From IMG/VR virus record IMGVR_UViG_3300010413_002950, positions 26,088-90,087 of that record: DNA of 64,000 nucleotides. One strand, 5' to 3'. The DNA comes from a virus. Below, piece after piece: positions 11,016 through 63,006 of this stretch. The notes under the pieces were generated by a model. The model did not search any database, had not been told where the DNA came from, and saw only the letters and a program-made list of their open reading frames with translations. Every line of letters starts with the position of its first letter. Position 1 is the first letter of the stretch. Made by a program: the position numbers and the translations under genes.

Positions 11016-11330
11016 TTACAAGTTAATGAACCTATTAAAGCCACTTAGTAAACACCTATACTGTAATTTTACAATACTAGGCTGATATGGCTTTTCAAAT
11101 TCTATATCTATATAGCCCTTTCTTTTAAGCTCTTTCAATACATCATATAACCCCCTATAGGTATAACCTAGATCTTCGGCTAATTTGCTCATACCTCTAG
11201 CTAATTCCTTATCAGAATAGAGGTGTAGCCGGATCCAAACAGCAAAAGCTGAAGATTTTAGCTCCTTATAGGCTACCTCTATAGTCTTGTGATTGCTTTT
11301 AGGGCTGTATTTATATTTTACTCTAAGCAT
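11016..11330 (-). CDS. Winged-helix DNA-binding protein
   Basis: This 104-residue protein has a helix-turn-helix core: ELARGMSKLAEDLGYTYRGLYDVLKELKRKGYIDI. This is the usual recognition helix plus wing of small replication or transcription regulators. The start overlaps the end of the helicase gene by eight bases. It resembles the N-terminal domain of the downstream replication protein in style and may act with it. Confidence 0.7.
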   Translation of the reverse strand: MLRVKYKYSPKSNHKTIEVAYKELKSSAFAVWIRLHLYSDKELARGMSKLAEDLGYTYRGLYDVLKELKRKGYIDIEFEKPYQPSIVKLQYRCLLSGFNRFINL

Positions 11331-13665
11331 AATTATCCAGTATTTCTATATCGAATTCTTTCTCAGATCGATAAACTGATAGTCTATCTCTAGAGTGCTG
11401 AGCAAAATATTTATGTGTCATATCTGCAAAATCAACAAACACTGCATCTTTTTTACCTTTACAAAGTGTAAGACATCGTAGCCTCTGGTACGTGGTTTTT
11501 ATGTTTTTGCCACCTTCTGCGTTGATCACACAATCAATTTCTGGGATATCTACGCCCTCAGATAAAACAGTGCCGATAAGCGCAGAGATATGGCCTTTTC
11601 TAAAGCTCTCTATAATCTCTGCTCTTTTAGGTGCTGGGGTAGCTCCAACAATTCGCTCACAGGAAATAGACGAATTCATCATTTTAAAAAGCGTATCTAC
11701 TTGCTCCAACCTATTGGATACAATTACCACTTTTCTATTTTCAGTCTTGATTAACTTTTCCGTTATATCTGCAATTATCCTATTGCGAATTGGATTGCCC
11801 CAGATAGCAGCTTTAGGCAATTGCTGACTCCACCATTCATCAGATAGATCTGGCTCTCTAATTGGTATGATTAGAAATTTAGGCTTTACAAGATACCCGA
11901 GCTGAATTAGCTCGCTAACTGAAATATCTATAAGGATATCCCCAGCGCAAGCTCTAAGCCAAATAACCCCCAATTCTTCTTCATTAGAATTTTCCAGAAA
12001 TACTGTAGCAGAAAGGCCGATTTTGTAAGGAGCTGGACAGTCAAGAAGGATATTTCTCCATGCATCTCCAGAACTAAAATGATGGCAATTATGAACCAGT
12101 ATTTTATTTGCAAAATATGTATGTGTGTTTTCTACTTCTAAATTATAGACATAACCGTCTGGACACAATTGTTTAAATTTGTCAGAACTTCTTGATTTGA
12201 GAATCTCAACACTTTCCACCCTTGACCAATTAAGAAATTGTCTTTCCTTCGATCCGCAGCTTTTACCCTTAAAGTATTGTGACTTGAACCGTCTACCTCT
12301 ATCGCAATTTTTAATATTGGGTTCGCAATGTCTATCTTGTAATGACTCGGTAATCCACCCTTTACACCACATTTCGTTGGAAGAATAAATTCCATTTCCC
12401 ACCCAAGTGTTGTTGCCAATAGTAGTTGGGGCAGCGTTGGCCCTCTCCCATTTCCACCTTGAATTGGCGGCTTCCATCCATTTATTCTGTGTATTGTAGA
12501 AACCTTTGCTCGTATTTCTGGTCTTTTCATTGGATTGTTTTTTTTCATTCTTTCTGATGCATATTTCTTGTTTGTTTTTGCCATTGTTTCTGAAGAACGT
12601 TTGCTTCGATATGCTTTTGAACATTCTTTTGAACAATAGGCGTGACCATATCTTCTTAATTGATCTAATTTGCATCCACTTACAAATATTTCTTTTTTGC
12701 ACCAAAAACAATTTGTTTTTATTTCTTTTTTCATATGTGGTGTATAGCACCATATCACTGGTTGTCAAATCAATAGCGTTTTTCCAACCTGTTTGTGTAA
12801 AAATTGGATGTGTTGGTGTACAGGTTAGAACTTTATTATCTGTTTTGATTATTACCAATTGTTTGCATTTATTGCGAAAGATGTTGATTACCTTTTGTTT
12901 TTCTATTTTTTTTGTGTTTTCATTATAAGATGTTACATATTCACCAACCTTAATTGATTCTATTGGCCTTTCATCAATTATTGTTCCAGCTGGAAAACAT
13001 TCATCAACAAGCATAAGATCAACATTGTTTATAACATTGTGATATTCTGGCGTATTGCGTTTTGCTAATAGCGTCTGAGCTGTAGAAACGGTTATATCAG
13101 ATGGTTCCCATACTCCATCACCCAATATACCTATTTCTATTTCTAGGGCCTTAGACAATGCTTTCTGGCTTTGGTAGAGTAGCAATTGAGAAGGTACGAT
13201 GAATAGCGTTCTAACCCCTAGCTTTGCAACAATGGCAGAAGCAACCAACGTCTTCCCCCCTCTGGGCGGGATCTTGATAATTCCCCTACCAACAGACTTG
13301 CTATACCCATACGGCTCAGTAGCTAATTCTAGAGCTTCTTGCTGATAAGGCCGTAAGCCAGTAACTTGCTTCAATTCTAGTGTACGTTTAGGATAAACTC
13401 GTAGATCCGTCAATTGCCATTCAGCTCCATTTTTTTCTATTATGCTAATAATGTTTTCAGCTAATCCAGCTGGAGATTTGAATAGTTTTTCAGATTTGCT
13501 ATAGGTAATGAGATACTTCTTTCCATCCCATCTACCTTCTTGATAAGCTGTTGTATGCTGATAGCCACTTACATAATAGCTGGTTTTTTCTCGCATTTGC
13601 CCAAATATAGGACCAGGAACATTTCGGATATAAACATAATTGTTGTCTAGCGTTATAGATATCAT
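11323..13665 (-). CDS. SF2 DNA helicase (UvsW/RAD3-like) interrupted by an intein
   Basis: The 780-residue precursor would become a helicase of about 476 residues after splicing. N-extein: a UvsW-like start, GLRPYQQEALE (Q motif region), Walker A IPPRGGKT (132-139), then LMLVDE. C-extein: CHHF completing DECHH motif II, KIGLSATV (motif III), GVDIPEIDCVIN (motif V) and YQRLRC, a deviating motif VI. The intein covers residues 223-526. UvsW-type helicases resolve recombination and replication intermediates. No ribosome binding site precedes the ATG; a promoter 6-35 bases upstream suggests a leaderless message. Confidence 0.9.
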   Translation of the reverse strand: MISITLDNNYVYIRNVPGPIFGQMREKTSYYVSGYQHTTAYQEGRWDGKKYLITYSKSEKLFKSPAGLAENIISIIEKNGAEWQLTDLRVYPKRTLELKQVTGLRPYQQEALELATEPYGYSKSVGRGIIKIPPRGGKTLVASAIVAKLGVRTLFIVPSQLLLYQSQKALSKALEIEIGILGDGVWEPSDITVSTAQTLLAKRNTPEYHNVINNVDLMLVDECFPAGTIIDERPIESIKVGEYVTSYNENTKKIEKQKVINIFRNKCKQLVIIKTDNKVLTCTPTHPIFTQTGWKNAIDLTTSDMVLYTTYEKRNKNKLFLVQKRNICKWMQIRSIKKIWSRLLFKRMFKSISKQTFFRNNGKNKQEICIRKNEKKQSNEKTRNTSKGFYNTQNKWMEAANSRWKWERANAAPTTIGNNTWVGNGIYSSNEMWCKGWITESLQDRHCEPNIKNCDRGRRFKSQYFKGKSCGSKERQFLNWSRVESVEILKSRSSDKFKQLCPDGYVYNLEVENTHTYFANKILVHNCHHFSSGDAWRNILLDCPAPYKIGLSATVFLENSNEEELGVIWLRACAGDILIDISVSELIQLGYLVKPKFLIIPIREPDLSDEWWSQQLPKAAIWGNPIRNRIIADITEKLIKTENRKVVIVSNRLEQVDTLFKMMNSSISCERIVGATPAPKRAEIIESFRKGHISALIGTVLSEGVDIPEIDCVINAEGGKNIKTTYQRLRCLTLCKGKKDAVFVDFADMTHKYFAQHSRDRLSVYRSEKEFDIEILDNYA
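12138..12734 (-). CDS. Homing endonuclease (Vsr/DUF559, EDxHD-like) nested out of frame in the intein
   Basis: This 198-residue protein begins MKKEIKTNCFWCKKEIF with a zinc finger (C-x2-C ... C-x3-C by residue 36). A linker like those of nuclease-associated modules follows (NNPMKRPEIRAK), then a PD-(D/E)xK/Vsr-like core: YKIDIANPILKIAIEVDGS, DRRKDNF, and GWKVLRFSNQEVL. Family knowledge points to site-specific cleavage of intein-less helicase alleles. The frame differs from that of the helicase and intein. A longer start at 12758 is possible, but the promoter placement favours 12734. No ribosome binding site is seen. Confidence 0.88.
   Translation of the reverse strand: MKKEIKTNCFWCKKEIFVSGCKLDQLRRYGHAYCSKECSKAYRSKRSSETMAKTNKKYASERMKKNNPMKRPEIRAKVSTIHRINGWKPPIQGGNGRGPTLPQLLLATTLGWEMEFILPTKCGVKGGLPSHYKIDIANPILKIAIEVDGSSHNTLRVKAADRRKDNFLIGQGWKVLRFSNQEVLTNLNNCVQTVMSII
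12741..12768 (-). promoter_or_regulatory. Putative sigma-70 promoter for the nested endonuclease
   Basis: TTGACA (12763-12768) and TATACA (12741-12746) are separated by 16 bases ending in GTGC. The expected start of transcription falls at or next to the endonuclease ATG (12734), giving a leaderless or nearly leaderless message. The 16-base spacer ending in GTGC is shared with the early promoter family at 57946-63571. Activity is inferred. Confidence 0.55.
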
Positions 13666-37627: not shown

Positions 37628-39127
37628 TTAATTTCTCCTTATGGAGCCATGAATAAAATCGTTAAAAAAGCTTCCACTTACCAATTCAGATATTGATCTT
37701 GTTATTAATCCGTTATTTTCTGAAAAGTCTCCACCACCTGTAGACATTATCGGTGTTTCTAACGACACAAGTACCTTACCACCTTCTCTAACATTGATCC
37801 CTATTCCAATCGTTGTTTCAATTTCTATTCCTCCAGTTACACTAGATAACATCGCGTCTCCGTCGCCAATAACATTTATTGCGTTTCCAGAGCTTTTAAT
37901 TACTATTTTTTTAGATGGCCCGAAAGCTAAAGTTGCCAATTTTCCATTTATTGATAGTCCAACATCGCTTGATAATGAGCCAATAAGAATGTCTGTGTTT
38001 ATTGCATTGATGTACGCAAATGCCCTAGGTGTCACAGAAACGCAATTATAACCTCCACCCCAAATTGATCCAAAGAGCATAAATAGGGATCCATAGGTTA
38101 TAGACAAACCTTCTGCATTAACGCCTCCCCTAATAGAGCTATTTTCATCGCCTCGTAAATAAAACGTCCCTTGATCAAAAGTTTGACTTTCTACAACTAT
38201 GCCCCATCCATTCCAGCTTAATTCGTTATCTATCCCTAAATCGCTAACAGCAGATGGTGCAGCAAAATATCCAGACAAGCTATTAAAAATCTCATATCCG
38301 CTATGTATAGAACTATTATTTAGGTGCATATCTACTTCTTCTGTGAATAGTATGCCAAACATATTTATACCGCTATTTATAATATTAAATTCCCAATATC
38401 CATAGCTTGTTGATTTTGTAAATCTAAAATTAATTAGCCATAGTCTTGGCTCTATGTACCTTGGAAAATGCTCAGGAGAAGGTGGAGAAAAATTACTAGC
38501 AAAAACCTTGGTATATTCATCCGAATAATAAATTACAACTTCAGGTTTTATAATTCTATAGGTATCGTTCTCTGCTACAGCTGCGCTAAATAATACATTA
38601 GGGTATATGTCTGTAGCTGTATTATTTCTTATCGTCCTTCTATCTCCAGCTGCAGCTCCAGTTAATATTTCTATAGTAGCTCCATAATATTCGCCAAAAC
38701 CATCATATTCTGTGGTACTTAAACCAGAAGTTTTTACCGATTGGTTAGAGCTACCAGCTAAAGCTGCAGTAGAACTAAGAATTTCAGTAAATCCATCGGA
38801 TGATCCACCCCCTCCATCACCTATTATATAAACATGAGCGTTTAGATCGCGCTTCCTAAATGACGGCACTTCATACCCGTTTCCGCTGTGTGGACCAACA
38901 TGTATTCTTATAGTGTGATTAACATGAGACGGTATTCTTTTTTCTGCTTCAACAATTGAAGCTAATGGTTCAGAGCTGGTTCCAGAATTTGAGTCACTCC
39001 CATCTGGTTCTCTAACATATATGTCCATTTCACTAGAAGTTGCAAAATCAACACCACCAATTTCTATATTATCATCGCCAGAATTGATAACAACTTTTCC
39101 AGCTTCAACTTTTACACTACCCGCCAT
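37628..39127 (-). CDS. Fibre/spike protein, beta-helix type (paralogue 1)
   Basis: The protein has 499 residues. The N-terminal strand module (AGSVKVEAGKVVINSGDDNI) is followed by a beta-helix opening (MDIYVREPDGSDSNSGTSSE, HTIRIHVGPHSG, VYIIGDGGGGSSDGFTEILS) and a long parallel beta-helix (ILFTEEVDMHLNNSSIHSGY). It is the closest relative of the 540-residue neighbour, with a stretch of near-identical DNA. Start and stop overlap neighbours by one base. Receptor binding or glycan degradation is inferred. Confidence 0.78.
   Translation of the reverse strand: MAGSVKVEAGKVVINSGDDNIEIGGVDFATSSEMDIYVREPDGSDSNSGTSSEPLASIVEAEKRIPSHVNHTIRIHVGPHSGNGYEVPSFRKRDLNAHVYIIGDGGGGSSDGFTEILSSTAALAGSSNQSVKTSGLSTTEYDGFGEYYGATIEILTGAAAGDRRTIRNNTATDIYPNVLFSAAVAENDTYRIIKPEVVIYYSDEYTKVFASNFSPPSPEHFPRYIEPRLWLINFRFTKSTSYGYWEFNIINSGINMFGILFTEEVDMHLNNSSIHSGYEIFNSLSGYFAAPSAVSDLGIDNELSWNGWGIVVESQTFDQGTFYLRGDENSSIRGGVNAEGLSITYGSLFMLFGSIWGGGYNCVSVTPRAFAYINAINTDILIGSLSSDVGLSINGKLATLAFGPSKKIVIKSSGNAINVIGDGDAMLSSVTGGIEIETTIGIGINVREGGKVLVSLETPIMSTGGGDFSENNGLITRSISELVSGSFFNDFIHGSIRRN
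38597..38832. repeat. 236-bp repeat, copy A
   Basis: This segment is about 94% identical to 40084-40319 (about 15 mismatches by eye). The last roughly 85 bases are unbroken identity. The flanking parts of the same two genes are far more divergent. Confidence 0.88.
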
Positions 39128-40749
39128 TAAAATACACCTCTATAAATTGAGCCATGTGTTAAGTCATCAAAAGATGTATTATTAGTTAATGTAGCAATAG
39201 CCCTAATAGTTGCCCCATTGTCTTCTGAGAAATCATTCCCGCTAGCAGAAATTGTTGGAGGGAAAAGAGATACTTGTATTTGACCATGGTTTTTTGTTAC
39301 CATGCCAATTCCCGATGTTGTATATAGCTCAATTCCACCTGTTGTAATAAATAAAGCTAATCCATTTTGTTTACTTATTATGGAGTTTCCAGAAGACTTA
39401 AGTATTGTTTTAATTGATCCAAATGTAGCTATATTTAGGTAGCCACCATTATCAATGCCAATACCAGTAGCTGTAAGAGAACCTATTAATATGTCCGTAA
39501 AAGTTGAAGAAATATATAATATAGATTCATGCGTATTTGAAATTGCTTGATATTGTCCGCCCCAAATTGAGCCAAATACCAATGTGCATTTACAACGAAC
39601 ATTTGCTAACGATTCAATATTAATTGAACCAATATAATCTCCACCACCATATAGTGATAAGCTTCCTTGACCAACTGTTGAATTAATTATAACACAACCC
39701 CACCCAGCCCAACTTTTTTCGTTTGGCGCTCCCAAATCATTATAAGCCGATATAACATTGTAATCAGCAACGCTATTAATATTTTCTATACCAGAAGCAA
39801 ATAATGCTCTAGTATTTGTGATTTTTGCCCTTTTAGCAAATTCAACACCTAAAAATACTACGCTACTATTTGAAAATGACACCTCAAAAAAACTTTGTGT
39901 TGTTTCTAGCTTAAAATTAATAAGGAATAAGGAATTGCCACGATCTGTAGTGTATTGTTCATTTATATATAAACCAACGCCAGAAGCTAATATTAGATCA
40001 TTTGGATCAGAATAATAAATTACAGTTTCTGGTTCAACAATTCTATATGTGTCTCCAGTTGAAATAGTTGCACTAAATGGAGTATTAGGGTATATGTCTG
40101 TAGCTGTATTATTTCTTATCGTCCTTCTATCTCCAGCTGCAGCTCCAGTTAATATTTCTATGGTTTTTCCCCAATATTCGCCAAAACCACCATATTCTGT
40201 GGTACTTAAACCAGAAGTTTTTATTAACAAATTTGAGCTACCAGCTAAAGCTGCAGTAGAACTAAGAATTTCAGTAAATCCATCGGATGATCCACCCCCT
40301 CCATCACCTATTATATAAATGTTTTGACTCAAAACTTTTTGTCTAATGTTTGGTCTAATGTAGCCACTTCCAGTATGTGGGGCTACATGAATCCTAATCG
40401 CATGATTGACATGAAATGGAATTCTGTTGACGGCTTCTGTGAGTGTAGCTAAAGGCTCAGAGATAGTACCAAGGTTGCTATCGCTACCATCTGCAGCTCT
40501 TACATAGATGTCCATTTCCTCATATGTTTCATTTATACTGGCTATTATCCAAGAGTTGGCTGCAGATGTTCTTTTGCGCCAAAAAATAGTACCAGTTTGT
40601 TGTAAAAACCACGTACCTTTAGGAGCCCCTTGCAAAGCAGCTGGAGCCGATCCACTATTTGGATTTCCATCATAGCTAGTTATTTCATAAGTTAAAAATG
40701 CCGATCTTCTCGGAAGCTCCAAATTTACAAAATCTTCAAAGGCGGTCAT
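39127..40749 (-). CDS. Fibre/spike protein, beta-helix type (paralogue 2)
   Basis: This 540-residue protein starts with a capsid- or tail-fibre-like segment (LELPRRSAFLTYEITSYDGN, APKGTWFLQQTGTIFWRKRT). It then matches paralogue 1 (EMDIYVRAADGSDSNLGTIS, HVNHAIRIHVAPHTG, EILTGAAAGDRRTIRNNTAT) and a beta-helix to the end. The N-termini of the paralogues differ, so they may attach at different points or stack in one fibre. Confidence 0.78.
   Translation of the reverse strand: MTAFEDFVNLELPRRSAFLTYEITSYDGNPNSGSAPAALQGAPKGTWFLQQTGTIFWRKRTSAANSWIIASINETYEEMDIYVRAADGSDSNLGTISEPLATLTEAVNRIPFHVNHAIRIHVAPHTGSGYIRPNIRQKVLSQNIYIIGDGGGGSSDGFTEILSSTAALAGSSNLLIKTSGLSTTEYGGFGEYWGKTIEILTGAAAGDRRTIRNNTATDIYPNTPFSATISTGDTYRIVEPETVIYYSDPNDLILASGVGLYINEQYTTDRGNSLFLINFKLETTQSFFEVSFSNSSVVFLGVEFAKRAKITNTRALFASGIENINSVADYNVISAYNDLGAPNEKSWAGWGCVIINSTVGQGSLSLYGGGDYIGSINIESLANVRCKCTLVFGSIWGGQYQAISNTHESILYISSTFTDILIGSLTATGIGIDNGGYLNIATFGSIKTILKSSGNSIISKQNGLALFITTGGIELYTTSGIGMVTKNHGQIQVSLFPPTISASGNDFSEDNGATIRAIATLTNNTSFDDLTHGSIYRGVF
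40084..40319. repeat. 236-bp repeat, copy B
   Basis: This is the partner of 38597-38832, in the same orientation and reading frame. It encodes the part around IGDGGGGSSDGF through EILTGAAAGDRRTIRNN of the second fibre. Confidence 0.88.
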
Positions 40750-43718: not shown

Positions 43719-44915
43719 TTATGTTACATTGATGTTGTATGCTTTTACAAGTGCGTCGGTTTCTTCAACCTGACAGGAAATTTTCATATGCATGACATAC
43801 TCATTTCCACGCTTGTAAATATCACGTTGCTTTTCCATGGTCATATCCCGACCGATACCAACAAGGTAGTTTTCCATATGGGTCAGAATAATCTGTGGAT
43901 ATGCCTTATAGGTAATTTTCACAGTTGCACCATCACCAATCACGCCACCACCATTACGAGCAATAGTACCATTGGTGTAGTTCATATCATAGTCTGAACC
44001 TTCAACATATGGTGTGGTTGGTGTAGTACCAAGAGTGCTAGGGGTAACAACCTCAGAAGCAGAAACAATTGGCTTATACCTAAGAGCAACAGCAGTGGTT
44101 CCAGGAAGTGCCACATGCTCAACAACTGTAGGATTGAACTCCATCAAAGGAACTTCCACAATGGGAATACCAAAAGGAGTCTGCATTTCGCCTTCTGCAG
44201 CTCTGACGCCCTTCATGTCTTCACGTGCTGAAATCTTCTCAACATACAATTGAGCTAGATTTGGAGCCATGAAGAATCGAAGTGATCTCTTATTCCTACG
44301 GAATTTAGTTGGCATAGAGTTGATCATATCACTAAAAACCGTCAACGAAATATCAGCTCCAGCTACATTTAGGGTGTGACCTGCATCGGCAAGCCGTAGC
44401 CAACCCTGATATAGGGAAAGCAAAGGATCCTTTACGTATTGCGATGTAGATCCACCTTCCCATAGATCGCTCTCAAGGCCAGCTTCACCAAGAATGTCGC
44501 CACGTAGGCATAGATGCTCAAGATCATTAGCTGCTTGCTTAGCAAACATACGCATAATGTGATCTTCGCCTTTTGCACCCTCAATACTCAGCTCCAGAAA
44601 AGAGTCAGAGATTTCCCAAGGCAGAATAACTTCCTTTGGATTAAGGCTGATCTTGGAAGTGGTAACGCCACGCCGATTACTAGGAGCAACCATCTCTGTA
44701 GCCGGTTGCATAACACGTGCACCAATACCGATCTTATCAATATCAAACTGCTCATTCCTGAATTTAACAATTCTAGCATTGTTCTTCAAAAATGATTCAT
44801 CAACTACATAGTCGATCAACGTATCAGCTTGCCTTGGGTTGAACTTACCGTATGAAGCCAACGCATCAGCGGCCGTGATAGCAGACTTGATTATCTCATC
44901 ATTAGTCATTCCCAT
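43719..44915 (-). CDS. Major capsid protein (HK97 fold)
   Basis: The protein has 398 residues. It shows the capsid pattern of myophages with XkdG-like proteins: DTLIDYVVDESFLKNNARI, VILPWEISDSFLE, NDLEHLCLRGD, RSLRFFMAPNLAQLY, and GIPIVEVPLMEF. AGGAGG with seven bases precedes the ATG. Local G+C is higher than the surroundings, as expected for a highly expressed gene. Between it and the scaffold gene a short GAGCG/CGCTC stem is possible. Confidence 0.92.
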   Translation of the reverse strand: MGMTNDEIIKSAITAADALASYGKFNPRQADTLIDYVVDESFLKNNARIVKFRNEQFDIDKIGIGARVMQPATEMVAPSNRRGVTTSKISLNPKEVILPWEISDSFLELSIEGAKGEDHIMRMFAKQAANDLEHLCLRGDILGEAGLESDLWEGGSTSQYVKDPLLSLYQGWLRLADAGHTLNVAGADISLTVFSDMINSMPTKFRRNKRSLRFFMAPNLAQLYVEKISAREDMKGVRAAEGEMQTPFGIPIVEVPLMEFNPTVVEHVALPGTTAVALRYKPIVSASEVVTPSTLGTTPTTPYVEGSDYDMNYTNGTIARNGGGVIGDGATVKITYKAYPQIILTHMENYLVGIGRDMTMEKQRDIYKRGNEYVMHMKISCQVEETDALVKAYNINVT

Positions 44916-44959: not shown

Positions 44960-45598
44960 TTATAAGATGCCCTTGAATACGGATTCATCTTGATCAAGTT
45001 TTTTCTCGACAGAATCTTCTTTAGATTGCGCCTCTTTTCTAGTTCCTTCAACTGCTTCAAGGCGTTTCTCAAAAGCTTCAAACTTTTCTACTATATCTGA
45101 AGTAGCTTTTTCAGAATCAGCTTTGCTTTCCTCTGATTTGTCTACAGGAAACATTTCTTTACTAATGCCCTCTATAATGTTCTTGGTGGCTTCAAGATCA
45201 ACGCTAGCCAAAACATTCAGAAGTTCTTGAACGGATTTTGTCAAAGCAGAAATTCTGTTGGTCGTAAACCTTTTGCCCTTTTCCACTTTTTCATTATCAA
45301 ATTCAATATTGCCATCTTCATAAACCTTTAGAACAGCTTCATTCTTGGGCTCTTCTGTTTGAGTTTCTTGAGATGCTTCGGGTTCTTTCTCTGGCGTCTC
45401 TTCAGCCTTTTGAGTAGGTTCTTTTGTTTCGTCCTTTTCAGGATCAAATACTCCCATGTCTTGCCTCCTGTAAATTATAAATTCACGCAAAATTGCTGGT
45501 TTATCAACAATAGATACCTCTTTAGTATCTAGCGCCTTAATTTCTCTTGGTTTATTTTCTGATATATTTTCTGTGCTATTGATATCAGATTCTGACAT
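44960..45598 (-). CDS. Capsid scaffolding protein
   Basis: This 212-residue, highly charged protein has an N-terminal motif (EVSIVDKPAILREFIIYRR) usually found in XkdF-type protease/scaffold proteins. A glutamate-rich linker follows (EETPEKEPEASQETQTEEP), then a coiled coil (VEKFEAFEKRLEAVE), and it ends in KLDQDESVFKGIL. It sits between the protease and capsid genes, the standard place for a scaffold. Confidence 0.82.
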   Translation of the reverse strand: MSESDINSTENISENKPREIKALDTKEVSIVDKPAILREFIIYRRQDMGVFDPEKDETKEPTQKAEETPEKEPEASQETQTEEPKNEAVLKVYEDGNIEFDNEKVEKGKRFTTNRISALTKSVQELLNVLASVDLEATKNIIEGISKEMFPVDKSEESKADSEKATSDIVEKFEAFEKRLEAVEGTRKEAQSKEDSVEKKLDQDESVFKGIL

Positions 45599-48500
45599 TA
45601 TCTACCTTCTACTGTGGCTATACCGCCAATACTAAAGCCTGTCAGATCGCCACTTTTCACCTTATTCCATACACTATCACTGGAAACATGCACTGTCATC
45701 ACCCAACTGCCCTTTTTTATCATTTTTTTATTTAGTGTAAGTTTTACTGGTGCAATGTATGACTCTACTAATTCTATCCCTATATCATCAAATTCTGAAT
45801 GCATTAACCCCATTCTGGTATCTTTATTGTAGTTAGATAGAAACTTATGTGCTGTTTTGCGAATAGTTTCTGGCTTTTCGTAATCGTTATGTGCATCAAC
45901 CTCATTAGGTTCTAATACTATTCCAGTAACTAATCTAAGCTCTTTACCATCTTCAGCCTTTTTCAGTTCATGCTTTTCAATAGATAGATTGAAATTATTG
46001 AAGTTTCCAACTCTTGAAAAACTCCAATTATCCTCAACTTTCTCTATTTTATATAGGCCATTTAGTACATCACCTTTGAAAATAACCTCTATCAATTCGT
46101 CTGTTTCTGATGTAATTGTTGCATTGCCACTATCCAGAATTTTAATATCTGAAGCTGAACCAATACTCTTATTGATGTAGTGCTTAGAGCTAGTTCTGCC
46201 ATTTAGATCTATTGAGTCTTTATGCTTATCTCTCCAAATTGTTATATCAACTACATCATTATCTATTGGATTATCAGATAAATCTAATACAGTAACAAAG
46301 TCATTGCCTACATCTATCCTAATAGCATTCTTACTTTCATCTCCAAAAGATTGTTTCTGTAAAACGAATTTAGCATTAGCTTTAGAAAGTGTAGTTGACT
46401 TCTTGTATGGGGCTGAAAAATCAATATCAACTTCGCCATTTTTGATAGCTTTGACCAATTCATCTCTGGTCTCTTTTGCTCCTTCGGTCTCATTCCAATA
46501 TTGGAATTTCTCTGGAATCTGCTTTCTAATTTCTGAAGGAAGCGCTGAATAACCTGCTTGTGGCATCCACCTTTTGCTAACAGCTCTATCGCTAATCGCA
46601 TATGGCGTTTGGTCATCTGGCCGTATTGCCAACCATGCAATTCTCTTCTCTGCTTTTTGGACAGACGAGAATACGCCTTGAGCTTTTAGAAATTCAACAA
46701 AGCAGTTTTCGCATAAATGCAATAGCTCATTGCTTCCAGACCATGCTATTTCAAGAATCTTCTCTTCATCTTTAGAACCACAGCCACTGCAAATAGCTAA
46801 TTCGCTCTTTTTTATGTTGAGTTGCCTAAAGATAATTCTTGAATTTAGCCCAGATCCTTTAAAGAAGTACTCATGGAAATCTTGCTTTTGAGCGCCATAT
46901 TCAAAAGTACCCTTAGCTACTATGTCTATGATACCAGGATATTCTCTGGTAGCTCCAGCTGGAACCGGATCATTTGGCTCTGGCTTTTCTATCTTGCCTT
47001 CTACATTGAGCCATTCCCAAGGCATTTGAGATTTTTTCTCAGATAGAATCTCTGATTTACCCCAATGGTCATTATTCCAATCAATTTTGCTTATATTGGA
47101 TAGATTTTTAGCCAATTTTTCAGCTTGATCCAAAGTTACAACTGGTTCTTTTACAGCTCCAGGGATCTGAGTATTTAGTGTCCATCCAATAAGCTTTTTG
47201 CCAGGGCTATAGCTCATTCTAATATCAGAGTGGACAGATTTACCCCTCCAGTGCTGTTGCACAACGTACTTATAAATCTGTCCTTCTTTTGGTGGAGAAG
47301 TGTATAGATCTGCCTTCTCTAGCGATCTAGTAACTCTTTCTCTTTTCTTATTCTCATCTTCAAGAATTTTTCTTGCTTTATTCTGTAAGCTTTCAAGCTG
47401 ATCTGCTGATAAGCCAATTTTGCTTTGTGGAATTCTAGCTATAGCGTTGCGTAGATGAGGTAAATCAACATTGCCATTAGCATCTTTATATGGAAAGTGT
47501 CTTAATGTTCTAGGTATAGTTTTTCCTTCATCATCTTTTTTGCCACCGCTTTCAACATATAAGAAAGCACTATCTGGAAGCGTATTGATATAAGCCGTTG
47601 ACCAAACAGCTTTTTGTGTTTCTTCTTCAAGAAGCCTTCTTGCTTTATCCTGTAGTCTGCTTATTTCGTCTGCACTTAAGCCAATTTTGCTTTGTGGAAT
47701 TCTAGCTATGGCATTCCGCAAATGTGGAAGATCTATTTTGCCACTTGCGTCTTTATAAGGGAAATGCCTTAAGCTTCTAGGTACGGTTTTGCCCTCCTCA
47801 TCCTTCTTACCACCAGTTTCGACATATAGAAAAGAGCTGTCTGGCAATGTATTGATATATGCTCCAGACCAAACGGCTTTCTCTAATTCAAACCATTTAT
47901 TTTGCTTTTCAGCATAAATCTCAAAATCATACGACTCTTGATCTAGCCCGTTGTCTGGTGGAACAGGATGTAACTTATTTCTTACATATAGCTCATCAAC
48001 AACCAATGAATGCAAGTTCATTATTTCTTCTGCATAAAGCGTTTCACTTTTCTGATATGCTTTATGCAAATTGAAATGAACGTCCACTAATTCATCTATA
48101 GTTAGATTTTCTGGATTTAGATTATTCGTGATTTCTATTTCTCTTTTCTCAATTATTTCTGGCCCATTAGCTTCAGACTCTTCTTTTGGTTGATCGCTAA
48201 TCCAGATTTTTTTTGCCAAAATTTCTAATGAGCTTCTATCGTATTTGCATTTCATGGGTTCATCAAACTTATTAACAGATTTAACCTCCCATGCAACAAA
48301 AGGTCCGTAATTCCATGAAGGCTGAACTTCTCCCCACTCTTTTTGCATTTCTTCTGTAATAAGATGCTTTTCTTCATATTTTGCAAAATCGTTGGGCTCA
48401 ATTATGAAAGACTTGCCAAATTCTATAGTACCCAAGGCTTTATCCATACTAAGGAGCAAAAATCTTTTATCATCTATGGCTTCAAAATTTGGTAAAGATG

Positions 48501-48666
48501 TTCTTACAAATAGTTTAGCTTCACCATTAGCAATTGATTTTGCTATTTTTGGTGGAGTTATTTTGATACCTTCATCTGGTAGCAAATTGCTTTTATATCC
48601 GCTAGTTGGATATAGCTTTCCGCCATCTTCTAAAGTAGTTGATGTGATCGATTTTTCTTTTTCCAT
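45598..48666 (-). CDS. Prohead protease polyprotein with LigD-PE-like and repeat domains
   Basis: The protein has 1022 residues. Domains: a leader; two tandem repeats of about 85 residues (264-348, 353-436; FLYVETGGKKDEEGKT, LRHFPYKDASGKIDLPHLRN); a region like the 3'-phosphoesterase domain of ligase D (463-615; YVVQQHWRGKSVHSDIRM, FEYGAQKQDFHEYFF); a CxxC...CxxC zinc site (626-655); an RPDDQTPYAISDRAV...LP module; and a C-terminal XkdF-like protease (about 905-1022; GIVLEPNEVDAHNDY, MGLMHSEFD, GDLTGFSIGG). It would mature capsids and may self-cleave. The fusion is unusual. Confidence 0.85.
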   Translation of the reverse strand: MEKEKSITSTTLEDGGKLYPTSGYKSNLLPDEGIKITPPKIAKSIANGEAKLFVRTSLPNFEAIDDKRFLLLSMDKALGTIEFGKSFIIEPNDFAKYEEKHLITEEMQKEWGEVQPSWNYGPFVAWEVKSVNKFDEPMKCKYDRSSLEILAKKIWISDQPKEESEANGPEIIEKREIEITNNLNPENLTIDELVDVHFNLHKAYQKSETLYAEEIMNLHSLVVDELYVRNKLHPVPPDNGLDQESYDFEIYAEKQNKWFELEKAVWSGAYINTLPDSSFLYVETGGKKDEEGKTVPRSLRHFPYKDASGKIDLPHLRNAIARIPQSKIGLSADEISRLQDKARRLLEEETQKAVWSTAYINTLPDSAFLYVESGGKKDDEGKTIPRTLRHFPYKDANGNVDLPHLRNAIARIPQSKIGLSADQLESLQNKARKILEDENKKRERVTRSLEKADLYTSPPKEGQIYKYVVQQHWRGKSVHSDIRMSYSPGKKLIGWTLNTQIPGAVKEPVVTLDQAEKLAKNLSNISKIDWNNDHWGKSEILSEKKSQMPWEWLNVEGKIEKPEPNDPVPAGATREYPGIIDIVAKGTFEYGAQKQDFHEYFFKGSGLNSRIIFRQLNIKKSELAICSGCGSKDEEKILEIAWSGSNELLHLCENCFVEFLKAQGVFSSVQKAEKRIAWLAIRPDDQTPYAISDRAVSKRWMPQAGYSALPSEIRKQIPEKFQYWNETEGAKETRDELVKAIKNGEVDIDFSAPYKKSTTLSKANAKFVLQKQSFGDESKNAIRIDVGNDFVTVLDLSDNPIDNDVVDITIWRDKHKDSIDLNGRTSSKHYINKSIGSASDIKILDSGNATITSETDELIEVIFKGDVLNGLYKIEKVEDNWSFSRVGNFNNFNLSIEKHELKKAEDGKELRLVTGIVLEPNEVDAHNDYEKPETIRKTAHKFLSNYNKDTRMGLMHSEFDDIGIELVESYIAPVKLTLNKKMIKKGSWVMTVHVSSDSVWNKVKSGDLTGFSIGGIATVEGR

Positions 48667-48675
48667 GTTCGCCTC

Positions 48676-49749
48676 CTAAGACAAATTTGGCAAAATTGAT
48701 TCAATTTCTTCTTGTGTAACATCAAGATTACATCTACATAAATAATGAAATGGTGGCATAATTACATTAGCACCCGATAAATTTCTTGTACCACGAGGAG
48801 CTACCTTGCCAGTTCTACCAGCTAATGACTTTATCTCATTAACAGATCTCCATGGTTGAATTGTTTTTATAGCTGTAGGATTTTTAGCTCCAAGGATATT
48901 GTCTAATTGCGATTGTGCTTCAGACACATAGAATTGCTTGCCATCAAGATACTGACATCTTTCACAAGTTCTATGATCCATTGGATTAATAACTTCAATT
49001 ACCGTATATCCAACCTTTGAGAATTCTCTAAGCTGTGTTGTTGATCTTGCTGAAGTTGCGGCATTAGCTACAAGTCCTTCAAAATACTTTTCATTAGTTC
49101 CGTTAAAGCCACCAGGAACTCTAGCTTCTTTAAGGGCCAGCCTAACAACCCTTTCCATTACCTTACCAGCTGCAGTTCTATTTCTTCCAAGTTCTAGGAT
49201 CTGCCTTTGTGTTGTTTTAGCTATATATGGAGATACATTGTTTTCATAATGTTCACCGATCCAGAATATCTGATGATCGTTTAACACATCCATAGCCCTT
49301 GCATCAGCAAGTTCTAAATCTGGTCTAACCGTTATCTCTTGCTTGGTTACAAATGTTCCTGGATCAAATGTCATTGGCTTTTTTCTAACGCCATAGGCAC
49401 GCTTTCTAGCTGCCATATGTGCCAATTCATATATTCTCTCTGTCTCTTTTGTAAACCTTTTCCTTATAGACTTAGGCCATTCGGCCATAACAGATGCTAT
49501 TTTCTTTAGCATTCTATCAATTTCTGTATCCGTTATTTCTTCTGATTTGCCTTTCTTTATGATATTAGCTGCTTCTTTAGCTGCATCTATAGATATTGTA
49601 TCCCATTGTCTATTAATATAAGTATGAAGATTTTTCTCTATCTTAGCTGCCTGAATCAATTCATCGTTGGATACAGCTTTAGCTATTAGATAATCAACAG
49701 CCGATATTCTATCAAAGTAATGATCGTTATGTCCACAACTACAGATCAT
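48676..49749 (-). CDS. Head morphogenesis (MuF-type) protein
   Basis: The protein has 357 residues from MICSCGHNDHYFDRISA; the ATG at 49749 lies within the end of the portal gene. A helical N-terminus is followed by the MuF domain at the C-terminus (MDHRTCERCQYLDGKQF, PPFHYLCRCNLDV) with its metal-binding cysteines. These minor head proteins enter the capsid with the portal. An N-terminal CSCGHND cluster is an extra. Confidence 0.85.
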   Translation of the reverse strand: MICSCGHNDHYFDRISAVDYLIAKAVSNDELIQAAKIEKNLHTYINRQWDTISIDAAKEAANIIKKGKSEEITDTEIDRMLKKIASVMAEWPKSIRKRFTKETERIYELAHMAARKRAYGVRKKPMTFDPGTFVTKQEITVRPDLELADARAMDVLNDHQIFWIGEHYENNVSPYIAKTTQRQILELGRNRTAAGKVMERVVRLALKEARVPGGFNGTNEKYFEGLVANAATSARSTTQLREFSKVGYTVIEVINPMDHRTCERCQYLDGKQFYVSEAQSQLDNILGAKNPTAIKTIQPWRSVNEIKSLAGRTGKVAPRGTRNLSGANVIMPPFHYLCRCNLDVTQEEIESILPNLS

Positions 49750-51439
49750 CTTCACCTTTCAGCTCATTAACCCAATCTTCTTCAAGCTGTTTTCTCAATT
49801 CAAACAATTCTTCAACGTATTCCTTATATCCTAATCTCTTTAAGGCTGTTACTTGTTGCCCTGGCTCAGAAGCATCAGCCATATTCTTGACAGCTTCAGC
49901 CATAGACAAGCTAAATGGAAGATCTGGATTGAACCTTGGATCATCAGCAAATGGCGGTAGCTCTTGTCCAAGAATATCCTGAAGGACCATGTCTGCCCTT
50001 CTTGGAGTCATACCGCCGGTTTTTTCAGCTCCAGCCAATATCTTGACAAGCTCTGAATTGTCTGTTGTGTTAGGGCTATTGCTCTTAAATTTATGATAGA
50101 CAATTCCCATATGCGGAAATAAAATTCTGTTAATCCAGTTATCAAATGAATTTCTCTCAGGAGCAAATACCTGCTCATCAGCTAATCTTCTAGAAGTTTC
50201 AGCTGTAGCTCTACTATAATCATCTGCTTTTCCAAGGAATATAGGTGGAAGCCTAAAAGATGAACGAACCTTTTCCCTATTAGCTGCAGAATATTCTTTA
50301 TACATAGCATCAGTTAGGGTTTCATCTGTTAATGATTTGATATCTACCTTAACCTGTCCTGAATCTTCTCCCTCTTCTCCAAGTGATTCGGCCTCAACCA
50401 CTAGAACCTTAGATCTGTTGTCGTCTCCTTGTAGCTTTGTGATAAATTCCTGAATTCTGTCAACCGTTTCTTGAGTAAGTTGGCCATTACTTACCATGAT
50501 AACTTTGCTAGGTATATTGTTATTTGTAAGAGTTATAAAGTTTACTTCAGAAGCTTTTCTATCGCCTTCTATATCTACTATGCACCCCATAAATCTAGGC
50601 AACCCATATGAACTTCTAGAAGAATATAGCCTCCAATGCTTAACTTCATTTGCCTTTCTGTCTTCTGGCATTGGGTTTCCATTACCATCCCAATCCTTAA
50701 TCTTTTCTTCAGAAACCAATTCTCCAGTTTCAGAATCATATGTTCTTGGATCGCCAAATTCCTTGAACCATTTTGTTTTATAGGTTCTTGTTTCAAATTC
50801 TCTAATACCAACATATATACTATTTACATAACGCCTAAACCGTTTCCACACTGGTATCTTCTTAATTGTTACGCTTTTATCTTCATTAAGCTGTAGAATT
50901 GGGACCTGTACTAAATAAGATTCTCGATCAAGCCTTCCAAGCCTAACCTCATGTGGTCTCATCAATTGGAAATACTGAATTTTACCAGCTGAATCTCTAA
51001 TAATTTCCCAATATGCATTTCCCGTAGATTCTAGATCGTTTCTGGTAGCTTTCCTAAGATCAACAAAGCAATCTTCCATTCCAGCATATAAGAAAAAGTT
51101 CTCTAGCTTAATTCTTTCTAATTCAACCTTCTTCTTTATATCTTCTGGTATTTCTGCGTTATCATTAAGGCGAGAAACAAAATAATGCCCAAAGCCATCA
51201 ATATTTGTAGCCATAGCATCAAAGCAAGATCTAAGCTCTGTATTTCTTTCTTCGAGAGTAACCAAATAGTATGGATCAATTGGTGGAGACAGAATTTTAC
51301 CCATCTCTGTAAGTTGAGTAAATGGATCATCTTCTGGAAGCTGTTTTGATTTTCCTGGTTCTGTAGCTGCCTTAAGGACAATAGCTCTAACTTTTCTAAC
51401 TTTCTTTTTGCTATCCACTATCTGAGTTGCATCTTGCAT
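49739..51439 (-). CDS. Portal protein (PBSX/HK97-type)
   Basis: The protein has 566 residues. The body has the PBSX-type pattern: LVTLEERNTELRSCFDAMAT, DLESTGNAYWEIIRDSAGKI, PHEVRLGR, AAELxHLRxYSSRSSYGLPR, and NIPSKVIMVSNGQLT. Residues 380-420 (FRLPPIFLGKADDYSRATAE) form the stem region. It forms the dodecameric ring for packaging, next to the large terminase gene. Confidence 0.92.
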   Translation of the reverse strand: MQDATQIVDSKKKVRKVRAIVLKAATEPGKSKQLPEDDPFTQLTEMGKILSPPIDPYYLVTLEERNTELRSCFDAMATNIDGFGHYFVSRLNDNAEIPEDIKKKVELERIKLENFFLYAGMEDCFVDLRKATRNDLESTGNAYWEIIRDSAGKIQYFQLMRPHEVRLGRLDRESYLVQVPILQLNEDKSVTIKKIPVWKRFRRYVNSIYVGIREFETRTYKTKWFKEFGDPRTYDSETGELVSEEKIKDWDGNGNPMPEDRKANEVKHWRLYSSRSSYGLPRFMGCIVDIEGDRKASEVNFITLTNNNIPSKVIMVSNGQLTQETVDRIQEFITKLQGDDNRSKVLVVEAESLGEEGEDSGQVKVDIKSLTDETLTDAMYKEYSAANREKVRSSFRLPPIFLGKADDYSRATAETSRRLADEQVFAPERNSFDNWINRILFPHMGIVYHKFKSNSPNTTDNSELVKILAGAEKTGGMTPRRADMVLQDILGQELPPFADDPRFNPDLPFSLSMAEAVKNMADASEPGQQVTALKRLGYKEYVEELFELRKQLEEDWVNELKGEDDL

Positions 51440-51447
51440 ATTAACCT

Positions 51448-52953
51448 CTATAATAATCCAAATGATTTACGCTTTTTCTTTTTACCTACTCTTCTTTTTG
51501 CTGATCCAATTGCATGATCAAGCGCATCAAAAAAATCCCAATGCTTTTTAGAATTCGGCTGAATAAGAACTAGATTTTCTATTGGCTCATGGTGTACACC
51601 TTTTCTAAAATACATTCGCTTATTATCAAAAACAGATCCAGCCAATTTCCATGCTCTAGAAATCTTATCCTTGCTGGTTTGCCTCTTGTAAATTCTAAAA
51701 TTTGGATGTTTCTCTTTTATGATTTGCCGAAGTGAATCTTGATACTGATTAGATTCTATACCAGCATAAATTGGATCCCACTTGAGATAGAATTCTACAA
51801 ATTTATCTGGTTGCTTAGTTGGCCTAAGATGTCCAAGATAATAGTCTAATAGATAAACATAGAAATCATCTTTTCTGATATTGCCTCTAATACCCACTAC
51901 AGCTATAGCAAATTTGTCATTGATTTCTTTTTCAGTTGAAGCAAGATCAACTCCCATGAATACCTTTAGATCATTAGCTTTGGGGAATTCTTTATCTTCT
52001 AATTCTATGCAATTATCATACTTGAAGATCTCGCCCTTCATCTCTTCTGTAGAACATTGATATTGACTAGCAAAAATTATTAGTCCTGCATTTTGCCTAA
52101 TCTCCTTAAATCTAGCAGGCGAAAATTTCTCAGGCCATGGCGAATTTCCCATTTCATCCAATGCTGGAATTACCTGAGTATAATTCTTAAGCTCATTAGC
52201 TTCTAGATGACCATATAGATCTTCAAAATGATATCGTGTACCTTGCCTATGAATTTCTCCCCTATGTGGAATGTCTGGATCTGGTTGCTCCATCATGGGA
52301 AGGACAGTCTTATAATAATATGTTTTTGTCTTATCTCTCATTACTGATGTTCTAGCATTTTCTTCTGTAATGAGATCATCTATAAAAGCTATATCAAAAT
52401 GCTTAGAGGTAATTGTACTATCTTCACCAACACAGGTTATAGTTGATTCTTTGGCTACTTGCGTTCTACCAAGAACCATTATCTCAGAATTGTCCCACTT
52501 CTCTACCTTTCTAGGATCATAGAATTCACCAAATATCTCTATTAGCCTTTCATTACCTACGAGCTGTGATTTTACCTCTCTAAGAAAGCCTTCAGAATTT
52601 GTCTTGCTTTTACTACAGAAAAGCTGTCTAATATTTCTGTTTTTGATAATATGGAATATTGATCTGGTTACTGTGCAAATAGTTGTTTTGCCAGATCCAC
52701 GAAAAACAAGCTGTAAATTGTCAGGATGCAAAAATTGCCATTGCATCATTTTTAAATGAAATGGCTTTACTGTATAACCAAGAACCTCTTTGGCAAGTAT
52801 GTCAACCCGATTATTTTCTATAACCTGAGTTCTGATCCAATTATTCATCGCGGTTTTTTGCTGTTGGTATACCAGCTGAAGCTCAGATCTTTCCATTTTA
52901 TCAAGCTTCTTGGCTACTCCGCGATATAATGGAACTATGTTGGTCTTGCCCAT
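51448..52953 (-). CDS. terL: Terminase large subunit
   Basis: The protein has 501 residues. The ATPase has Walker A FRGSGKTT (84-91) and Walker B FDIAFIDDL (187-195). The nuclease part starts at VFMGVDLASTEKE (about 335-347) and continues YAGIESNQYQDSL. It ends in KRRVGKKKKRKSFGLL. It pumps DNA into the prohead. A strong terminator directly upstream (52957-52991) separates it from the previous gene, so it probably depends on readthrough or a promoter not recognised here. Confidence 0.94.
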   Translation of the reverse strand: MGKTNIVPLYRGVAKKLDKMERSELQLVYQQQKTAMNNWIRTQVIENNRVDILAKEVLGYTVKPFHLKMMQWQFLHPDNLQLVFRGSGKTTICTVTRSIFHIIKNRNIRQLFCSKSKTNSEGFLREVKSQLVGNERLIEIFGEFYDPRKVEKWDNSEIMVLGRTQVAKESTITCVGEDSTITSKHFDIAFIDDLITEENARTSVMRDKTKTYYYKTVLPMMEQPDPDIPHRGEIHRQGTRYHFEDLYGHLEANELKNYTQVIPALDEMGNSPWPEKFSPARFKEIRQNAGLIIFASQYQCSTEEMKGEIFKYDNCIELEDKEFPKANDLKVFMGVDLASTEKEINDKFAIAVVGIRGNIRKDDFYVYLLDYYLGHLRPTKQPDKFVEFYLKWDPIYAGIESNQYQDSLRQIIKEKHPNFRIYKRQTSKDKISRAWKLAGSVFDNKRMYFRKGVHHEPIENLVLIQPNSKKHWDFFDALDHAIGSAKRRVGKKKKRKSFGLL

Positions 52954-55130: not shown

Positions 55131-55333
55131 TTGTTTCCTTTCAAGATCCTAACCCTATGCTCATAGCCATAGCCACCAGGAGCTTTTTTGAATTCGGCAA
55201 AAGCTATGGTAAATTTATCTGTACAGCGATTGCCACATTGTTCTGCAGATACAGAGCACACTGGGCAATCTAGTAAGTTATCTCCAGCTTCTTGGTATTT
55301 GCGAAATAGCTTTTGAAATTCGGTTTCTGTCAT
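55127..55333 (-). CDS. Small cysteine-rich protein
   Basis: This 68-residue protein has an N-terminal helix (TETEFQKLFRKYQEAGDNLL), then CPVCSVSAEQCGNRC, a compact zinc site, and a basic end. It overlaps the pentapeptide gene's stop and the next gene by four bases. The fold looks like a short zinc knuckle. Role unknown. Confidence 0.65.
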   Translation of the reverse strand: MTETEFQKLFRKYQEAGDNLLDCPVCSVSAEQCGNRCTDKFTIAFAEFKKAPGGYGYEHRVRILKGNK

Positions 55334-56115
55334 TTTTCACACTCCACCCAAAAATCGGTTACTCGCCATTTGGTTATAGCTTTATGACAGTCTATGTCTC
55401 TAAACCATACTGCAATTATGGTTACGTCTTTATATTCATAGCCATTTTTCTTAAGCCAAAACTTTACATGTTCGATTGTTGGTTTAACATGTAAGCCAGG
55501 ATGACAATCGGTATATGGACACGTACTAAAAACTGGAGCTGTATACAAATTGCCAGAGCTATATCCACTGCTTTTTACGACAGGACTATGAGCTGTACGA
55601 TAACCCTTACACCATACTTGCCCTGAACGGGTAGTAATTTTCTCAAAGTCGTTAGCATTTGCATTAGGCAAATTTGTTAGATCTAACACAGTATTTGCCA
55701 AATCGGCTCCTTGCAAATTGGCTCCTTGCAAATCGGCTTCTCGCAAATTGGCATATCGCAAATTGGCATCTTGCAAATCGGCTCCTTGCAAATCGGCATA
55801 TCGCAAATTGGCTCCTTGCAAATCGGCATATCGCAAATCGGCTCCTCGCAAATTGGCATCTTGCAAATTGGCATATCGCAAATCGGCATATCGCAAATCG
55901 GCATCTTGCAAATCGGCATATCGCAAATCGGCTCCTCGCAAATCGGCTCCTTGCAAATCGGCATCTTGCAAATCGGCATATCGCAAATCGGCTTCTCGCA
56001 AATCGGCTCCTTGCAAATCGGCTCCTCGAAAATCGGCATATCGCAAATCGGCTCCTTGCAAATCGGCTCCTTGCAAATCGGCAAATGGTTTTATTTCATG
56101 TCCGTTTCTTTTCAT
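55330..56115 (-). CDS. Pentapeptide repeat protein, 26 repeats
   Basis: The protein has 261 residues. MKRNGHEIKPF is followed by 26 repeats of A(D/N)LXX (residues 12-141), forming a right-handed quadrilateral beta-helix. Related phage and plasmid proteins mimic DNA and bind gyrase. The C-terminal 110 residues (GYRTAHSPVVKSSG, CPYTDCHPGLHVKP) are a separate cysteine-containing domain. The start at 56115 has AAAGGA before it. Function beyond the fold is inference. Confidence 0.85.
   Translation of the reverse strand: MKRNGHEIKPFADLQGADLQGADLRYADFRGADLQGADLREADLRYADLQDADLQGADLRGADLRYADLQDADLRYADLRYANLQDANLRGADLRYADLQGANLRYADLQGADLQDANLRYANLREADLQGANLQGADLANTVLDLTNLPNANANDFEKITTRSGQVWCKGYRTAHSPVVKSSGYSSGNLYTAPVFSTCPYTDCHPGLHVKPTIEHVKFWLKKNGYEYKDVTIIAVWFRDIDCHKAITKWRVTDFWVECEK
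55693..56082. repeat. 15-bp tandem repeat array (26 units)
   Basis: On the plus strand, units of 15 bases of the type caaatcggcnnnnng recur with near-perfect period and encode the pentapeptides. Because the period is a multiple of three, all other frames also stay open, which explains the spurious long reading frames here. Confidence 0.9.
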
Positions 56116-56136
56116 CTTGTTTCCTTTCAACGGTTT

Positions 56137-62152: not shown

Positions 62153-62833
62153 CTACTTCTTTGGGTATGGCTTACATGCTCTAGCTGCAGCCATCACTAC
62201 TGGCTTCCATTGTGTCCACCATGCTAATGCTCTTCGATCCATTTGATTAATTTCTTCATCTGTAAACTTCTTCCACTCTTTGGCTGTATGATACTCGCAG
62301 CCCATCCTGATATTGTCCCTTTGTATATGAGCTATTGACCATATACATTGCATCACAAAATCAGTTTCAGGCAAATTAGCTCCTCGCAAATCGGCTCCTC
62401 GCAAATTAGCTCTATACAAATTAGCTCCTTGCAAATTAGCTCCTCGCAAATTAGCTCCTCGCAAATTAGCTCCTCGCAAATCGGCTCCATACAAATCGGC
62501 TCCATACAAATCGGCTCCTTGCAAATTAGCTCCTCGCAAATCGGCTCCTTGCAAATTAGCTCCATACAAATTGGCTCCATACAAATTGGCTTCTCGCAAA
62601 TTAGCTCCTCGCAAATTAGCTCCATACAAATTGGCTTCTCGCAAATTAGCTCCTCGCAAATTAGCTCCATACAAATCGGCTCCATACAAATCGGCTTCTC
62701 GCAAATTAGCTTCTTGTAAATCAGCTTCTTGTAAATCGGCTTTTTGCAAATTGGCTTTATGCAAATTGGCTTTATGCAAATTGGCTTTTTGCAAATTGGC
62801 AAATGGTTTTATTTTGTATCCATTAACTTCCAT
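62153..62833 (-). CDS. Pentapeptide repeat protein, 30 repeats
   Basis: The protein has 226 residues. MEVNGYKIKPF is followed by 30 repeats of A(D/N)LXX (residues 12-161), then a distinct C-terminal domain (GCEYHTAKEWKKFTDEEINQ, MDRRALAWW). The N-terminus matches the other pentapeptide protein (NGxxIKPFA). The C-terminal domains differ, suggesting different partners. The start at 62833 has GAAAGGAAAGTAAG upstream. It may mimic DNA. Confidence 0.85.
   Translation of the reverse strand: MEVNGYKIKPFANLQKANLHKANLHKANLQKADLQEADLQEANLREADLYGADLYGANLRGANLREANLYGANLRGANLREANLYGANLYGANLQGADLRGANLQGADLYGADLYGADLRGANLRGANLRGANLQGANLYRANLRGADLRGANLPETDFVMQCIWSIAHIQRDNIRMGCEYHTAKEWKKFTDEEINQMDRRALAWWTQWKPVVMAAARACKPYPKK
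62351..62800. repeat. 15-bp tandem repeat array (30 units)
   Basis: Units of the type caaattagctcctcg repeat with a 15-base period and encode the pentapeptides. The array is less uniform than that at 55693-56082, so it may be older. It also creates spurious long frames on both strands. Confidence 0.9.
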
Positions 62834-62850
62834 CTTACTTTCCTTTCTGG

Positions 62851-63006
62851 CTATTTGCAAAGCTTTACACCCCTAAGATCTGCTTTCACAAGGGGTCCAT
62901 CATACAATATAGACCTAAGTCTTGCTTCTGCTTCTGCATTTTGTCTTTTAGCTCTTTTCACATCAGCTAAAACAAATCTGGCTATTTCAAGAGTGTTATA
63001 TTTCAT
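62851..63006 (-). CDS. 51-residue hypothetical protein
   Basis: The frame starts MKYNTLEIARFVLADVKRAK and ends LVKADLRGVKLCK. GAAAGG precedes the ATG and a promoter (63027-63055) lies directly upstream, which supports a real gene. It is helical and basic. Function unknown. Confidence 0.62.
   Translation of the reverse strand: MKYNTLEIARFVLADVKRAKRQNAEAEARLRSILYDGPLVKADLRGVKLCK

Follow-up and report, generated by a model that had tools for sequence, protein, structure and literature searches.

LigD 3'-phosphoesterase-like domains with an altered active site in a viral head-protease polyprotein

A polyprotein gene in a viral head operon

We analysed a 64,000-nucleotide window (bases 26088-90087) of the 90,087-base IMG/VR virus record IMGVR_UViG_3300010413_002950, whose head operon encodes a polyprotein of 1022 amino acids (aa) that an earlier reading of the sequence (the original prediction) had described as a capsid protease carrying a domain like the 3'-phosphoesterase (PE) of the DNA ligase LigD. 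The open reading frame (ORF) lies on the minus strand exactly where it had been placed (Table 1), and an AGGAGG that resembles a ribosome-binding site stands directly 5' of its ATG (48672-48677, minus strand). Profile comparisons and a predicted structure indicate that two modules inside this head gene, here called PE1 and PE2, are both LigD 3'-phosphoesterase-like, an interpretation that we grade as supported. The finding is best classed as LigD-PE-like domains whose active site has changed, within a head-protease polyprotein from a broad virus family of proteins with a predicted role in end repair.

Table 1. Features of the polyprotein and of the surrounding head genes, in window coordinates
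Feature	Residues (aa)	Position	Strand	Basis
XkdF/PE polyprotein gene	1022 in total	45598..48666	-	ORF list; AGGAGG upstream
ASCH-fold domain (predicted)	25-161	48184..48594	-	AlphaFold2 model and Foldseek
Small helical domain common to relatives	181-240	47947..48126	-	alignment
Repeat copy 1	264-352	47611..47877	-	sequence comparison
Repeat copy 2	353-441	47344..47610	-	sequence comparison
PE1, LigD 3'-phosphoesterase-like domain	452-620	46807..47313	-	profile, fold, conservation
PE1 metal motif VVQQHWRGKSVHSDIRM	468-484	47215..47265	-	sequence, alignment
FHEYFF, conserved PE1 motif	597-602	46861..46878	-	alignment
CxxC...CxxC, putative zinc site between PE modules	626-655	46702..46791	-	sequence
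Conserved linker	677-745	46432..46638	-	alignments
PE2, second LigD-PE-like module, triad lost here	767-887	46006..46368	-	profile; 3p43 E 0.0022
XkdF/Peptidase_S78_2 head-maturation protease	893-1022	45601..45990	-	Pfam 5.6e-30; phrog_3017 4.6e-36
Terminase large subunit		51448..52953	-	phrog_38 1.9e-66
Portal protein		49739..51439	-	family matches
Mu-F/SPP1 gp7-like minor head protein		48676..49755	-	family matches
Gene next downstream of polyprotein, scaffold-like		44960..45598	-	ORF list
Virion structural protein, probable major capsid		43719..44915	-	phrog_1623 5e-71

Both PE modules resemble the LigD phosphoesterase

A profile built from PE1 sequences only retrieved LigD-PE chains and nothing else from the PDB (3p43, E 7.8e-4; 3p4h, E 0.021; 3n9b and 2lj6, weaker), and a second profile, covering the linker and PE2 but free of PE1 sequence, ranked two LigD-PE entries first, 3p43 and 3p4h (the latter with E 0.017). 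The linker itself carries the motif W..DQTPYV.S.RAV.K.W.P..G.SALP...IP..F.YW...RDEL. An AlphaFold2 model of residues 452-887, with a predicted local distance difference test score of 84.5, gave five Foldseek matches in the PDB below E 0.001, 5/5 of them to LigD-PE, with TM-scores by target length of up to 0.82. The Foldseek output does not indicate which PE module aligned, and the fold of the other module therefore rests on its profile match. The predicted fold, the PE beta-barrel, is thus the one proposed for the LigD-like domain from its motifs, and the second related module suspected further downstream corresponds to PE2.

Direct scans of the window protein with Pfam, PHROGs and NCBIfam left the PE domain unnamed because the family is too divergent: Pfam LigD_N has no match on this protein and reaches only sub-threshold values (E 0.004-0.04) on its relatives. 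A Foldseek search of BFVD returned no named match of use. A chance motif is ruled out by the profile searches and the fold search, and the reading as one PE domain interrupted by a long insertion, hinted at by a phmmer match at 832-883, was rejected because PE1 and PE2 match LigD-PE separately.

The metal site of PE1 is kept and its phosphate site altered

In Pseudomonas aeruginosa LigD, H42, H48 and D50 bind manganese and R52, H84 and Y88 bind phosphate; H84 and Y88 are both essential, their mutants being inactive (PMC8656161). The equivalents of H42, H48, D50 and R52 in PE1 are H472, H479, D481 and R483. Counted over the ungapped rows of each column in 68 sequences, some of them near-duplicates, the manganese triad is kept (H472 in 60/61, H479 in 66/66, D481 in 66/66), as is the phosphate-binding arginine (65/66), so that the metal pattern VVQQHWRGKSVHSDIRM read from the window holds among homologues. 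The columns of H84 and Y88 have changed, as detailed below, and PE1 therefore retains the metal site with an altered phosphate site. One element of the original prediction fell away: FHEYFF, which had been counted into the metal-binding pattern, is not the third catalytic His of LigD and is unsupported as a metal ligand because H598 varies, while E599 is near-invariant (64/65 PE1 rows).

In PE2 of the window protein the His...His-x-Asp triad is gone. A strict pattern finds it intact in 18/86 PE2 sequences, and inspection by eye adds further cases, such as the extra PE copies of loci L100 and L102. Between the window and its relative L004, the ratio of nonsynonymous to synonymous substitution rates (dN/dS) is 0.085 for PE1, 0.048 for the linker and 0.30 for PE2, compared with 0.134 for the whole gene, which is under purifying selection; PE1 is therefore constrained and PE2 drifting. 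PE2 is a decayed copy in the window virus, and its triad persists in some other viruses.

Intein-like inserts with typical ends split PE1 at several sites in L028, L111, L032, L093, L108 and L113, and those of L028 and L111 sit inside the metal motif. Since inteins prefer conserved active-site motifs, these inserts fit a working enzyme in the family. L108 and L111 also carry a further intein-like insert in the ligase domain described below, and L008 (6531-8705) has, between HYR and GRSVHTDF of PE1, an in-frame insert of ~47 residues whose ends are not clearly intein-like.

Other domains of the polyprotein

The C-terminal XkdF-like protease stands as predicted: Peptidase_S78_2 matches residues 902-1018 with 104.4 bits against a Pfam cut-off of 24. 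This part has a dN/dS of 0.052 (window versus L004), and its neighbours in the head operon are portal, Mu-F and capsid genes. At the other end of the polyprotein, the predicted structure has an ASCH fold. The best Foldseek PDB matches of this domain are 2dp9 (E 1.4e-5) and the Z. mobilis ASCH protein 5y6c (E 1.9e-5, probability 1.00), and of the nine matches below E 0.001, eight are to ASCH structures from Z. mobilis (probability 1.00), with a model that is confident to about residue 145 and weak past that point. In L034, the counterpart of the small helical domain scores as Pyr_excise (31.2 bits, cut-off 23).

The tandem repeats and the zinc site of the original prediction are also present. 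The two 89-aa repeats are identical at 70/89 residues; L004 has one copy only, and Thermoanaerobacterium phage THSA-485A encodes a relative with 71% identity within a gene of its head region. Weak matches to DUF2452 and K-box at 405-443 fall within the repeat and were rejected. The putative zinc site consists of C626/C629 and C652/C655 and is found, among the aligned homologues, only in the window protein and in L004.

The PE unit recurs beside DNA ligases in many viral loci

A scan of IMG/VR with the single protein as query gave two loci only, on related contigs where this gene is 99% and 89% identical (the latter being L004), and a wider set needed alignment-based scans. These gave many more loci with the PE1-linker-PE2 unit, with no new ones from an additional scan with another alignment. 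A scan of GTDB genomes found two archaeal metagenome-assembled genome (MAG) contigs, one of which is also an IMG/VR contig, and a tblastn search of 50,697 phage records detected the unit in one, ANMV-1. Local models recognised PE1 in 71 loci, or 63 after eight evident near-duplicates were dropped. The PE1-linker-PE2 unit recurs across about 70 viral contigs, and XkdF is fused at the C-terminus in 13/63 of the de-duplicated loci.

An ATP-dependent DNA ligase domain is part of the cluster in 55 of the 63 loci and shares the ORF in 34, with Pfam matches down to E 2e-29; a strict pattern recognises the K-x-D-G adenylation motif in 43/52 long ligase stretches, and visual inspection shows it in several others. 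A nucleotidyltransferase-like motif, GG..N.G.T.GDID, by which alone this module was recognised, occurs in 43 loci, the helical domain in 41, ASCH in 32 and a metallo-beta-lactamase fold in 17. Curated Pfam scans support the ligase, XkdF and metallo-beta-lactamase calls in relatives; they also match PNK3P and 2'-5' RNA ligase2 (2H) in L007 and D12 methylases in L066 and L097. No archaeo-eukaryotic primase (AEP) polymerase was matched by Pfam in the relatives, though PE and ligase are present. The window and L004 are the sole members with repeats where others carry nucleotidyltransferase and ligase. That PE domains are usually joined to a ligase in a head cluster suggests a DNA-repair kit built into or beside the particles. 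As a separate observation, the polyprotein of L034 (3230-7954) combines radical-SAM, DUF6884 and Pyr_excise matches with nucleotidyltransferase, ligase, PE1 and PE2.

Where flanks can be read, many loci have the array after the portal gene and before a head protease or capsid gene; the upstream neighbours checked were portals in 5/5 cases, and the downstream genes head proteases in 5/5. A portal model matched in 32/63 loci, a lower bound, as only a few loci supplied the models and many contigs or flanks stop short of the portal; the portal candidates of L010 and L013 have no PHROG match. A subgroup (L085, L096, L099-L104 and similar) encodes PE1 and further PE copies as a gene of their own beside that of the ligase; most of these loci have tail-like ORFs upstream, and no portal was recognised.

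A possible virion-borne end-repair function and its alternatives

Taken together, these data lead us to favour, at roughly even confidence, a head-maturation protease polyprotein with a nucleic-acid end-processing cargo that is incorporated into the head, cleaves itself and repairs DNA ends. The protease part would bring the polyprotein into the procapsid and would cut it at maturation; the freed modules may remain associated with the genome and, either inside the capsid or shortly after ejection, repair 3' ends that are damaged or blocked, making breaks ready for sealing. In most relatives the fused ligase would do the sealing; in the window virus, which would have lost its ligase part, another ligase would take over. 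This reading is favoured because of the LigD-PE fold and the independent profile matches of PE1 and PE2, the kept triad and low dN/dS of PE1, the frequent ligase and other modules of end-processing type, the portal and head-protease neighbours, the XkdF fusions and the intein-like inserts in PE1.

Several observations weigh against it. The H84 column of PE1 is Glu, Gln or other, with His in 2/68, and the Y88 column is Trp in 67/67, changes that may have modified or abolished PE1 activity. The rest of the 90-kb record, possibly incomplete, yielded neither a DNA ligase nor LigD. The portal is unrecognised in 31/63 loci, partly since the contig or fetched flank ends, and the position behind the portal is not universal, because tail-like ORFs lie upstream instead in L085, L096, L099 and L102 and the portal of L011 is on the opposite strand.

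The same genes could serve repair during packaging, with the polyprotein mending nicks or blocked ends at the portal or scaffold and then being destroyed or expelled rather than injected. The gene lies between portal and capsid genes and is fused to the maturation protease, whose usual substrate is the scaffold, and T4 packaging is reported to stall on structurally defective DNA; the sequence, however, has no feature that tells this apart from a virion-borne function, and we consider it unlikely, if readily conceivable. The PE folds of the window protein may alternatively have turned structural or scaffolding and no longer act on DNA, as the loss of the ligase with tandem repeats in its place, the missing PE2 triad, the absent H84 equivalent and the record without a detected ligase would allow. 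The intact triad of PE1 and its stronger constraint relative to PE2 argue otherwise, and a purely structural role seems distinctly unlikely to us.

Least probable, in our estimate, is that the module mends or degrades RNA, such as cleaved tRNA, after injection. It draws on the ASCH structure matches, which include the ac4C hydrolase YqfB besides the Z. mobilis proteins, on the 2H domain of L007, on weaker RNA_ligase matches in L014 and L096, and on the fact that LigD PE also removes 3' ribonucleotides (PMC8656161). The ligase of L014, however, matches DNA_ligase_A_M (2.1e-29) far better than RNA_ligase (8.8e-4), LigD PE domains are part of DNA end joining, and some of the polyproteins include D12 DNA methylases.

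Extending virion-borne end repair from the window virus to its relatives, we propose with somewhat less than even confidence that many uncultured tailed viruses, which form a large group with probable archaeal members, build a DNA end-repair machine into the virion, so that the genome would be mended inside it or on leaving. Its parts would be ASCH, the nuclease-like metallo-beta-lactamase fold, nucleotidyltransferase, ligase and tandem LigD-type end-healing domains, fused to the protease or encoded beside it. If true, this would amount to a viral version of end joining that travels in the particle; it could explain usable genomes in long-persisting particles, a persistence suggested by the sediment source of ANMV-1 and the archaeal MAG members, and would place members of the LigD end-healing family, with their active site altered, in a new setting.

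Relation to known systems

Phage-head-borne enzymes are known for takeover and counter-defence. A DNA end-repair kit tied to a capsid protease has no earlier description as far as our searches show: no report of an XkdF/LigD-PE/ASCH-type combination was found in the open-access literature, subscription papers and preprints lying outside the reach of the search, and the PE1-linker-PE2 family is, provisionally, apparently undescribed. It shares with the LigD 3'-phosphoesterase superfamily (PF13298; 3p4h, 3p43, 3n9b) the fold, the Q/H/H/D/R motif and the usual ATP-dependent ligase partner, but differs in that PE1 lacks the H84 equivalent, has Trp for Y88 and carries RG inserted after the first His, and in its tandem copies with a conserved linker, scores below the Pfam cut-off and place in a virus head gene. 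Bacterial LigD, the ligase of non-homologous end joining, unites polymerase, PE and ligase in one protein, unlike the window record with its lack of a detected ligase.

The closest named relative is ANMV-1 AJP62006 ('ATP-dependent DNA ligase'), which has PE1-linker-PE2 at 31% identity, in an unannotated part, and is encoded directly behind the portal gene, but which carries nucleotidyltransferase-like and ligase domains and no XkdF. XkdF proteases with extra N-terminal domains (PHROG 1530; 'DNA methyltransferase/prohead protease' genes) likewise place XkdF C-terminally behind an enzyme-like domain, whereas the cargo in the window is ASCH plus PE domains. The polyprotein, which is encoded among virion genes and unites several domains of unlike activity, also recalls the polyvalent proteins (Iyer et al. 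2017, PMC5512222), large multidomain phage proteins in a portal or head gene context that are thought to be packaged and injected and whose parts include Pol-beta nucleotidyltransferases and 2H domains; it differs in its theme of DNA end repair with a ligase and in the fusion to a head protease, and a text search of that paper for LigD, XkdF and ASCH found none.

Neighbouring genes and other features of the window

The head operon runs in the order terminase, portal, Mu-F-like protein, polyprotein, scaffold-like protein and capsid protein. The scaffold-like gene has no family match in Pfam and PHROG scans, and a tail-sheath-like ORF used as query against phages gave no match. Two adjoining paralogous genes (37628-40749, minus strand; 499 and 540 aa) share long common stretches and probably encode tail or fibre proteins. 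Two pentapeptide-repeat protein genes lie at 55330-56130 and 62153-62860 (minus strand), and an ORF at 7091-7888 (minus strand; NQGGSSSCVAQA...) resembles a papain-like cysteine protease. Finally, a helicase-like ORF at 11323-13665 (minus strand) contains an intein-like insert (CFPAGTIIDERPIESIKVGE...VYNLEVENTHTYFANKILVHN), and a 206-aa ORF with the look of a homing or Vsr-like endonuclease (12138-12758, minus strand) lies within this insert in another frame, so that the same DNA may code for both.

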